From Maribellus sediminis (lineage in GTDB: Bacteria > Bacteroidota > Bacteroidia > Bacteroidales > Prolixibacteraceae), in contig NZ_WXUB01000003.1 of assembly GCF_011799805.1 (NCBI RefSeq), positions 1 to 64,000 on the forward strand: a DNA stretch of 64,000 bases, written 5' to 3'. Every line of letters begins with the position of its first letter. Position 1 is the stretch's first letter. The notes below the pieces were generated by a model. It was not told the origin of the DNA. It searched no databases and worked only from the letters and a program-made list of their open reading frames with translations. Positions 61,536 through 64,000 of the stretch are shown piece by piece. A program made the translations under genes and the position numbers.

Positions 61536-61578
61536 GATTGTGATTGATTGTGATTGATTGTGATTGATTGTGATTGAT
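61536..61578. repeat. 10-bp tandem repeat (TGATTGATTG)
   Basis: Four consecutive copies of TGATTGATTG, the last imperfect. Simple repeat in non-coding DNA about 110 bases behind the sigma-54 regulator stop. Confidence 0.9.
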
Positions 61579-61689: not shown

Positions 61690-62853
61690 CTAATTCAGTG
61701 GTGCCGCAAACTTCAGCACATCTGCTTCATTGATCTCGTTATCACAAAGAATGATCAGCCTTTCTATCACATTTCTGAATTCCCTGATATTACCGGTCCA
61801 GTTTAGTTTCTGAAGCTCTGCGATGGCAGTATCGGTAATGGTTTTTTGCGACATTCCGTATTCGCTGCAGATCTGCTCAATAAAATGATTGGCCAGCAGC
61901 GGGATATCTTCGATTCGTTCATTTAGCGTTGGCACTTTTATCAGAATTACACTAAGCCTGTGGTATAAGTCCTCACGAAACTTGTTCGCCTCAATTTCTT
62001 CTGAAAGGTTTTTATTTGTGGCGGCCACCACGCGCACGTCAACCTTAATTTGTTTGTCGCCACCAACACGGCTAATCTCACTTTCCTGGAGCGCGCGCAA
62101 AACTTTTGCTTGTGCCGAAAGACTCATGTCGCCGATCTCATCCAGGAACAAAGTACCGCCATTGGCTTGTTCAAACTTTCCTTTACGTTGTTTCACTGCC
62201 GAGGTAAAAGCCCCCTTTTCGTGCCCGAACAGTTCACTTTCGATCAACTCGGTTGGAATTGCAGCACAGTTCACCTCAACAAAAGGACCCGACGCCCGGT
62301 TACTTTGGTCATGAATACGGCGGGCAACCAACTCTTTCCCGGTTCCGTTTGATCCGGTGATTAAAACGCGGGCATCGGTTGGAGCAACACGATCGGCCAT
62401 GCTGATCACTTCAGTTATGGCTTTTGATTCACCAACAATGTCGTATTTTTTGTTGACTTTCCTTTTAAGGATCTTGGTTTCGGTAACCAGGTTCGATTTG
62501 TCCATGGCATTTCTGATCGTGATTAGCAATCGATTCAAATCGAGTGGTTTCTCAATGTAATCGAAAGCTCCTTTTTTTATCGAATCTACTGCGGTATCAA
62601 TGTTTCCGTGGCCAGAGATCATCACAATAGGTGTATCCGGTGCCAGAACCACTGCACGCTCCAGAACTTCAATGCCATCGAGTCCGGGCATTTTAATGTC
62701 GCACAAAACAACATCGTACTCTGCCGATCGGATCATTTCAACTCCTTTATTTCCGTCCTCTGCCAGGTCAACCTCATATTTCTCGTATTCCAGAATGTCT
62801 TTGAGCGTATTTCGAATGCTTCTTTCGTCGTCTATAACCAGGATCTTTGACAT
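61690..62853 (-). CDS. Sigma-54-dependent response regulator without DNA-binding domain
   Basis: 387 residues. The receiver domain (1-120) has the acidic pocket DDE, the phospho-acceptor Asp in CDIKMPGLDG, and the Lys in IEKPLD. The AAA+ activator domain (about 140-365) has GSNGTGKE (Walker A), GAFTSA (sigma-54 contact loop), LFLDEIGDM (Walker B) and WTGNIREFRN. The protein ends at NEADVLKFAAPLN, where NtrC-type proteins would continue with about 60-80 residues of Fis-type HTH. No histidine kinase is next to it. It must activate RpoN promoters from solution or through a partner. Start at the first ATG. Confidence 0.9.
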   Translation of the reverse strand: MSKILVIDDERSIRNTLKDILEYEKYEVDLAEDGNKGVEMIRSAEYDVVLCDIKMPGLDGIEVLERAVVLAPDTPIVMISGHGNIDTAVDSIKKGAFDYIEKPLDLNRLLITIRNAMDKSNLVTETKILKRKVNKKYDIVGESKAITEVISMADRVAPTDARVLITGSNGTGKELVARRIHDQSNRASGPFVEVNCAAIPTELIESELFGHEKGAFTSAVKQRKGKFEQANGGTLFLDEIGDMSLSAQAKVLRALQESEISRVGGDKQIKVDVRVVAATNKNLSEEIEANKFREDLYHRLSVILIKVPTLNERIEDIPLLANHFIEQICSEYGMSQKTITDTAIAELQKLNWTGNIREFRNVIERLIILCDNEINEADVLKFAAPLN

Positions 62854-62978: not shown

Positions 62979-63617
62979 TTAGCAACCTCCTGCGGCAACA
63001 TTACTTTTCTGTCGGCGTTGCACCTGAACCGGCTTGCTCATGTCGTCAGAATTGAGTGCTGCACCGTCTTTAGGAGCAGCCATTTCAGCATAATCGAAAC
63101 GGGCAATGCCTTTAAAATAAGCGTCATCGTCGATGGTTGAATAGAGATCATCTTTGTGCTCGAAATAATAATTATAACCTCCCAGCAAGAGCTTCACGTT
63201 ATTAAATCCAACCTGGCGATAGAACATCCACGGGCCATTGGCGTGTAATTCGTCTTCACCAACCAACACAACGGTAACTCCCATATCCCGCAGCTTTTTC
63301 ATGCGATCGATGTTTTCTTCGCGGCTAAGTACCGATGCGGCAAGGTTTTCCGATCCCGGGATATGTCCCTGACCAAAAACGAAGTTATTCCGAATGTCGA
63401 ATAGTACGATACTATCCGGTTTATTGGCAATAATATCTTCCAGTTCCCAGGGATAGACATAATCCTCGGACAAGGATAGCGCACTCACACTTTCGGCTAT
63501 GGTTTTTTCGTAAGTAAACAATGGCTTTGGCTTTGTGATAAAGCCAATAATCAACACAACTACAAAAATCGACAAAGCGATCAGAGTTCTCCACGGATTG
63601 AGTTCATGTATATGCAT
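62979..63617 (-). CDS. Membrane-anchored rhodanese-like protein with C-terminal cysteine tail
   Basis: 212 residues. One N-terminal helix (LIALSIFVVVLIIGFI) then a rhodanese domain at about residues 50-160 (FDIRNNFVFGQGHIPGSENL, then the site loop VVLVGEDELHANG, and FNNVKLLLGGYNYY). The active-site Cys expected in the loop is missing. The protein ends RRQKSNVAAGGC, with its only late cysteine as the last residue. The upstream neighbour ends the same way. The periplasmic location is inferred from the anchor. Co-transcribed with it (24 bases). Confidence 0.85.
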   Translation of the reverse strand: MHIHELNPWRTLIALSIFVVVLIIGFITKPKPLFTYEKTIAESVSALSLSEDYVYPWELEDIIANKPDSIVLFDIRNNFVFGQGHIPGSENLAASVLSREENIDRMKKLRDMGVTVVLVGEDELHANGPWMFYRQVGFNNVKLLLGGYNYYFEHKDDLYSTIDDDAYFKGIARFDYAEMAAPKDGAALNSDDMSKPVQVQRRQKSNVAAGGC

Positions 63618-63641
63618 GCTACTAATTTTTACAAGTTAAGT

Positions 63642-64000
63642 TTAACATCCTCCGGCTGCAACGTTGCTCTTTTCACGACGACGTACTTCGACGTCAACTT
63701 TTGTTGCTTCCGATTCTCCTGATCCCGCTCCGGTGAAATACATCTGGGCTCCTTTTCTGAAAGTGTATGTTTCAAAATCGACAGCAGGTGCATCATCACT
63801 TGGTCGCTGCGGTTCTATAATGGTTTGCATCCAGCAATTAATTCCACCTTTCAGAACATAAGTACTGTTGTAACCCAAGCGTTTGGTGAGTACCCACATT
63901 TGATCGGCTTTAATATCGTCGTTGGAAACAAAAACAACTTTAGTCCCGGGCATTCCCAGGTACGAAAGATTGCCGTTAACCAGCAAGCTATCGAGTGGAA
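63642..64000 (-). CDS. Rhodanese-like protein with C-terminal cysteine tail (5' end beyond window)
   Basis: The C-terminal 119 codons; the frame is open to the right edge, so the start is not seen. The rhodanese-like part shows PGTKVVFVSNDDIKADQM, where the CxxxxR loop would be, without the Cys, then LGYNSTYVLKGGINCWMQ. The tail ends RRREKSNVAAGGC, identical in its last nine residues to the downstream gene. The GGIN-C cysteine lies in a strand, not in the catalytic loop. Function unknown. Confidence 0.8.
   Translation of the reverse strand, partial: PLDSLLVNGNLSYLGMPGTKVVFVSNDDIKADQMWVLTKRLGYNSTYVLKGGINCWMQTIIEPQRPSDDAPAVDFETYTFRKGAQMYFTGAGSGESEATKVDVEVRRREKSNVAAGGC

Follow-up and report, generated by a model that had tools for sequence, protein, structure and literature searches.

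Cysteine-tailed rhodanese-like proteins of Maribellus sediminis as candidate sulfur carriers of a split YeeE/YedE transporter

In this work we have analysed a 64,000-nucleotide stretch of the Maribellus sediminis genome (contig NZ_WXUB01000003.1, positions 1 to 64,000; hereafter the window), at whose right edge two adjacent genes encode rhodanese-like proteins, here called A and B. Neither protein has a cysteine in the catalytic loop and both carry one at the very end of the chain. In relatives the genes are linked to the two halves of a YeeE/YedE transporter and are sometimes fused to its N-terminal half, the terminal Cys is conserved and the loop Cys has been lost. We propose, with a probability of roughly 0.6, that A and B are periplasmic sulfur carriers of a split, PmpAB-like YeeE/YedE transporter, whose terminal Cys arm would relay sulfane sulfur to YeeE.

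Protein A, of 212 residues, is encoded on the minus strand at 62979..63617. The window holds the C-terminal part of B (63642..64000, minus strand), a protein of 204 residues whose start codon lies outside it, at contig position 64256. Both matched PF00581 (Rhodanese) in Pfam-A scans (A 3.7e-11, B 3e-14), and neither matched a SoxY, TusA or DsrC (PF04358) domain in these scans. The catalytic position was located by alignment with an ordinary Cys-bearing rhodanese from the same genome. In B it is occupied by Ser, in the former catalytic loop VSNDDIK (63909..63929, minus strand) within VVFVSNDDIKAD; in A, judged by eye from alignments, by Gly, in the loop VGEDELH (63243..63263, minus strand) within VVLVGEDELHA. 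The active-site-loop Cys by which PF00581 marks active sulfurtransferases is absent from both, as the initial annotation had recognised for this adjacent pair. It had also pointed out that both end in KSNVAAGGC, and this can be read directly at 62982..63008 in A and 63645..63671 in B (both minus strand). Each protein has a hydrophobic segment at its N-terminus; that of A, TLIALSIFVVVLIIGFIT (63534..63587, minus strand), was assigned as a membrane anchor from its sequence and from the hydrophobicity seen family-wide. No lipobox Cys follows the signal segment, since the last residue of A is its sole Cys and B has only C141, which is internal and outside the loop, and C204. Directly 3' of A on the same strand lies a gene (61690-62853) for what we take to be a response regulator, labelled as such with a sigma-54-activator-like sequence; it could regulate the sulfur operon.

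Overall, A and B are 26% identical. Could their common tail be an accident, or a recent copy of one gene's end in the other? Chance identity is ruled out by the conservation among relatives described below. A recent copying of the tail, by duplication or by gene conversion, is ruled out as well, because seven of the nine tail codons differ synonymously between A and B and 20 of the 27 bases are identical. Among 46 adjacent pairs, 227 of 404 identical tail residues are encoded by different codons. When the whole 5.6-Mb host genome was searched for AAGGC followed by a stop codon, three places were found, namely A, B and one antisense to another open frame, which was rejected as a further tail gene. 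The tails of adjacent paralogues have 5.8 of nine residues in common against 3.2 after shuffling (46 pairs; 0 of 10,000 shuffles), a comparison that is confounded by genome relatedness; it is possible that this resemblance reflects co-evolution with one docking site. The tails are also basic: the 12 residues that precede the final three contain on average 4.6 Lys/Arg and 0.42 Asp/Glu.

The initial annotation had suggested looking for a partner enzyme beyond the right edge. There both YeeE/YedE (PmpAB-type) halves adjoin B, and a Phs/Psr-like reductase follows. On the minus strand the order is molybdopterin oxidoreductase, FeS subunit, NrfD/PsrC-like membrane subunit, YeeE1, YeeE2, B and A. The molybdopterin oxidoreductase has a Tat-like N-terminus; its best NCBIfam match is PhsA, to which it is related and whose function it may or may not share, at 454 bits against an equivalog cut-off of 694. 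YeeE1 (178 residues) corresponds to the C-terminal half of the YeeE family and YeeE2 (200 residues) to the N-terminal half, and the two match Sulf_transp (PF04143) at 9.6e-14 and 9e-17. An alignment of the first 40 sequences for either half showed one column with Cys throughout (40/40 for YeeE1 and 40/40 for YeeE2). Farther upstream lie DsrE2-like, DsrC/TusE-like and DUF1641 genes, together with one for a type III sulfide:quinone reductase, which scores 660 bits where the cut-off is 525. The stretch that separates the reductase operon from DsrE2 contains a Rieske-like gene and then a gene for a 902-residue cytochrome b/multiheme protein (L004:9958-13045, plus strand); the multiheme part of this protein resembles ExtM, at 244 bits where the cut-off is 800. 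On another contig the host has a second cluster (C5; L187:7591-9808, minus strand) of YeeE1, YeeE2 and a rhodanese with the tail DGGCE, followed by a 145-residue rhodanese-like protein without the Cys tail.

A match to A was present in 58 of 100 genomes of a family-level sample, and among the matches listed for the fetched loci all ended in GGC except two in L003, one an ordinary rhodanese and the other ending in GGCE. Relatives were then sought in named genomes with patterns independent of the tail. This gave 172 confirmed relatives; among the best 80 of the 172, which come from Draconibacterium, Maribellus, Marinifilum, Labilibaculum, Carboxylicivirga, Sunxiuqinia, Mangrovibacterium and uncultured relatives, all B-type proteins have Cys as the last or second-last residue, apart from those truncated by the end of a contig. 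The pooled loci held 244 matched stretches representing 192 distinct proteins, 178 with a terminal (G/E/D)GC and 14 without. In the former, Cys is the last residue in 171 and is followed by one more in seven. The loop Cys is missing from 177 of these 178 proteins, the residue in its place being Ser (105), Gly (53), Ala (16) or, once each, Tyr, Val and Asp, with Cys in the one exception. Four of the 14 tail-less matches are cut by contig ends; the ten complete rhodaneses have Cys at the loop column in five cases and, by eye, in two more, Asp in two and Ser in one. The loop Cys and the tail Cys are therefore nearly mutually exclusive, and this comparison strongly supports the claim, made at the outset, that a functional tail has taken over the cysteine of the loop. 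The case named as contrary to it, in which orthologues would keep the catalytic Cys and lack the tail, or the tails would vary freely, was looked for among these relatives and was not found. In two genomes of one genus (L065 and L200) the tail protein has a further Cys in the loop region, at a position common to both (in L065 within YCEDN), and these proteins may possibly be intermediates. At another locus (L097:678-9136) we observed three rhodanese-like genes whose products end in GGGCD, SGGCN and GGGGCG, with one residue past the Cys and few basic residues.

We also used a YeeE2 profile to survey 296 genomes from across the phylum, so that the tail played no part in selection. Fifty genomes matched, with 54 strong loci (E <= 1.1e-59) and three weak ones (about 2e-21 to 1e-20). 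YeeE1 lies beside YeeE2 in all 54 strong loci, and in all 54 a rhodanese of the tail kind is adjacent to, or fused with, the N-terminal half of YeeE. Its frame is open, with Cys last or penultimate, in 53; in the remaining one (L204:7948-8560) there is a frame break, and the later frame ends in KKKREGC. At the three weak loci no rhodanese ending in Cys was found, and L208 has an ordinary-looking rhodanese. Outside the phylum at least one case occurs in plasmid records: plasmid 1 of Gemmatirosa kalamazoonensis (Gemmatimonadota) has YeeE1, YeeE2 and a rhodanese ending in RRRGC. When this protein was aligned with those of the 53 strong loci, leaving aside the locus with the frame break and preferring the Cys-ending frame at loci with several rhodaneses, the terminal Cys was the sole column conserved in 100% of the 54 sequences, whereas the Asp of the rhodanese domain reached 98%, and its Arg and the Gly just ahead of the Cys 96% each. 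Some other Cys falls within the aligned stretch in ten of the 54. The chains end in GGC (30), EGC (16), MGC (4) and once each in DGC, FQC, GLC and RGC, six of them with one further residue; as one end (FQC) has no Gly, four are MGC and one is GGLCS, a Gly-Gly tail is not a requirement. L188 has a rhodanese domain so degenerate that no Pfam rhodanese match was obtained at 0.01, and the terminal Cys is kept. What relatives conserve is thus the terminal Cys, usually after Gly. The weight that was first put on nine conserved residues is misplaced: the Cys is conserved widely, while the identity over nine residues is local to this pair.

The AlphaFold2 model of B, built from a 25-sequence alignment, has a mean pLDDT of 84.3 and resembles solved rhodaneses (best Foldseek E 1.7e-6). 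Within the tail, pLDDT falls below 50 at residues 179-196 and 201-204, and the model suggests that the tail is probably disordered. Of the 178 tail-bearing relatives, 174 have a hydrophobic segment ahead of the domain. Across it, net charge is greater on the preceding side in 125 of the 178, equal in 20 and reversed in 33; from the segment and this charge bias, the rhodanese domain may lie on the periplasmic side. The host YeeE2 ends, by eye, in a strongly basic stretch, which would fit a cytoplasmic terminus, and the fusions would then need one more helix to bring the rhodanese out into the periplasm. We tried to locate the tail on YeeE by folding a fused protein, an approach that was given up: the rhodanese part is confident, the YeeE part is poor and unreliable, and the mean pLDDT of the whole is 56.7. 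The 50 Foldseek matches listed for the fused model are mainly rhodanese-domain entries, with no YeeE among them.

From these observations we infer how the arm might be loaded with sulfur, where it might dock, and in which direction and on which side of the membrane sulfur might pass. The rhodanese domain would be a non-catalytic scaffold, tethered to the membrane through a single N-terminal helix, and the last 20-25 residues a disordered basic arm tipped by the invariant Cys. Basic residues near this Cys could attract thiosulfate, polysulfide or tetrathionate anions, from which the tail thiol would take a sulfane group as a persulfide or S-thiosulfonate. The donor might be the neighbouring reductase, of the Phs/Psr type or the octaheme OTR type, or a catalytic rhodanese. 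The arm would then swing to the outer mouth of YeeE and hand the sulfur to the Cys of YeeE1, which should match the outermost Cys of TsuA, and the relay would continue to YeeE2 and into the cytoplasm. In the available part of PMC11073785, the TsuA/YeeE relay is described as running from outside to inside through C293, C91 and C22, and as continuing on the inner face with the Cys of YeeD, which receives thiosulfate there. The tail Cys would be an outward extension of this relay and the outer counterpart of YeeD. The movement may be import for assimilation or oxidation, or an exchange with the reductase. The original interpretation of the pair is partly supported overall; the persulfide carriage it contained is putative.

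Does the arm serve YeeE or the reductase? In an alternative that we regard as unlikely, the delivery would resemble that by Sud: the tail thiol would offer polysulfide or thiosulfate to the active site of the Phs/Psr or OTR enzyme, and YeeE would handle the product or by-product. A reductase gene accompanies the module in 109 of 120 loci (L067-L186), as this alternative would lead one to expect. In these loci we counted a molybdopterin/NrfD reductase with separate tail proteins in 84, an octaheme cytochrome with the fused form in 19, octaheme with separate proteins in three, molybdopterin with the fused form in one, both in one and neither in ten; in two more, of the molybdopterin kind, the contig ends before the tail. 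Under stricter limits the numbers became 86 molybdopterin, 22 octaheme, one both and 11 neither, the last mostly on short contigs. One of the three octaheme loci with separate proteins (L160; G104:C1:2697813-2698328) is so classed owing to a single in-frame stop in the YeeE2 part of a fused gene, whose rhodanese part and GGC tail are open. The available text of PMC12142623 also describes a Psr operon of Desulfurivibrio with a periplasmic triple-rhodanese sulfurtransferase.

The fusions, however, speak for YeeE: 13 of the 178 tail-bearing relatives have the rhodanese joined on at the C-terminal end of YeeE2, and none of the 178 was seen fused to a reductase. Nor is the reductase always there. 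The 54 YeeE2-anchored loci have an octaheme OTR-family gene in 24 cases, a molybdopterin reductase gene in 15 and neither in 15, nine of these last being stretches of less than 4 kb. The host C5 cluster, within the 18 kb read, and L198, L199, L201, L205 and L206 have YeeE and a tail protein and no match to the reductase profiles. In this third setting a rhodanese with a YCHIG loop precedes YeeE1 in L198, L199, L201 and L205, by eye with an apparent signal sequence in three of them, and in L206 a three-domain rhodanese does so. The OTR-family genes, of which the five scanned scored 571-590 bits against a TIGR04315 cut-off of 375, are followed by cytochrome b; TIGR04315 matched in 42 of the 296 genomes, 40 of them above the cut-off, and in none of 14 controls. 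We read the context of ten of the 45 TIGR04315 matches, picked to include genomes without a strong rhodanese match: the four loci with YeeE have a tail rhodanese, and the six without YeeE have none. Since there are three enzyme settings, and OTR loci lacking YeeE also lack the tail rhodanese, YeeE and not the reductase is the constant partner, in keeping with a carrier for the split transporter. Among the OTR loci, L192, L193 and L197 have the octaheme tetrathionate-reductase-family gene and cytochrome b with no YeeE module, and belong to small genomes of one family.

It could also be asked whether the terminal Cys carries sulfur at all. It may instead have a structural or redox role: a disulfide that links A to B or either of them to YeeE, or a ligated metal or heme, might hold or gate the complex. 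A single invariant Cys at the end of a chain would suit a disulfide, and the resemblance of adjacent tails is what a common docking site would give, with genome relatedness as a confounder. We nevertheless consider this role improbable. In 80 loci (L067-L146) the number of tail rhodaneses is one in 50, two in 26, three in two and none in two (contig ends), and some of the single cases may likewise be cut by contig ends; with one tail rhodanese in 50 of the 80, an A-B disulfide cannot be general. Moreover, the sulfur gene context and the basic tail fit the capture of anions better, and a flexible arm would be a poor fixed ligand. It is very doubtful that the tail Cys is a sensor reporting external sulfane sulfur, gating YeeE or signalling as SoxT1B does for SoxR. 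A YeeE-like protein with a signalling role is described in the available part of PMC11582611, and the presumed sigma-54 activator-type response regulator lies 3' of A, but a protein that can be fused to one half of the transporter and is linked to sulfur enzymes of three kinds looks more like a working component.

The proposed transporter carrier can be compared with several known systems. The Sud protein of Wolinella is a polysulfide-sulfur transferase associated with polysulfide reduction and carries polysulfide sulfur on its loop Cys. It shares the rhodanese fold with the tail proteins (PDB 1qxn, profile match 6.1e-4), but these have no loop Cys and bear their thiol at the C-terminus. DsrC/TusE proteins have the working Cys on a mobile C-terminal arm and are cytoplasmic and soluble; a DsrC-like gene lies in the same host region, but the fold is unrelated to that of the tail proteins. 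SoxY bears the motif GGCGG. The A/B family appears, from its sequences and the model of B, to share with SoxY a single conserved Cys on a flexible C-terminal arm, whereas the tail proteins have a rhodanese fold, are membrane-anchored or fused to the transporter and normally have Cys as the very last residue. SoxY is periplasmic, with its thiol near the C-terminus on a flexible arm. According to the available text of PMC11582611, SoxYZ is a proposed periplasmic sulfur donor to the YeeE-like transporter SoxT1A. The same source describes PmpA and PmpB as two half-size proteins with one conserved Cys each, PmpB and PmpA retaining the equivalents of Cys91 and Cys293; here, in contrast, the halves have about 170-200 residues, and the N-terminal half is followed by, or fused to, the tail rhodanese. 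YeeD/TsuB, too, is a small partner that YeeE cannot do without; its Cys prolongs the relay, and in some species it forms one polypeptide with YeeE (PMC11073785, in part). It differs in having a TusA fold and working on the cytoplasmic face, while the tail proteins have a rhodanese fold and are probably on the outer face; its fusion is with a whole transporter, that of the tail rhodanese with the N-terminal half. From the portions available of three other papers, lucinid symbionts have SoxY and octaheme reductase genes side by side (PMC11237559), type III SQR, YeeE and DsrC, genes for which also occur in the host region, are connected in a scheme drawn up for cable bacteria (PMC13293266), and rhodanese-like selenoproteins are on record (PMC13188914).

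Thiol arms, rhodaneses and YeeE partners are thus already known. In literature searches that covered mostly openly available papers, no title or opening of an abstract named a Cys-less rhodanese with a terminal Cys, and a rhodanese fold in which an invariant terminal Cys replaces the catalytic one and which is a standing partner of split YeeE did not come up. It is an even bet, in our estimation, that these proteins form a new class of periplasmic carrier, in which a rhodanese fold without catalytic Cys would be the anchored scaffold for a C-terminal thiol arm, a 'zeroth cysteine' at the outer mouth of split YeeE. As obligate partners they would extend through Bacteroidota and into at least one further phylum, would plug several unrelated sulfur enzymes into one channel and would have invented the arm of SoxY independently. 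The tail proteins offer a specific, conserved candidate, centred on a single residue, for the delivery of sulfur to the outer side of YeeE/PmpAB-type channels in bacteria that lack SoxYZ. They would be a further case of an enzyme fold being retained with its catalytic residue relocated to a mobile tail, and would tie Phs/Psr-type enzymes and the octaheme 'tetrathionate reductases' to sulfur transport. Elsewhere in the window, at 61536-61578, we observed a tandem repeat of a 10-base unit, GATTGTGATT, in 4.3 copies with 100% matches.
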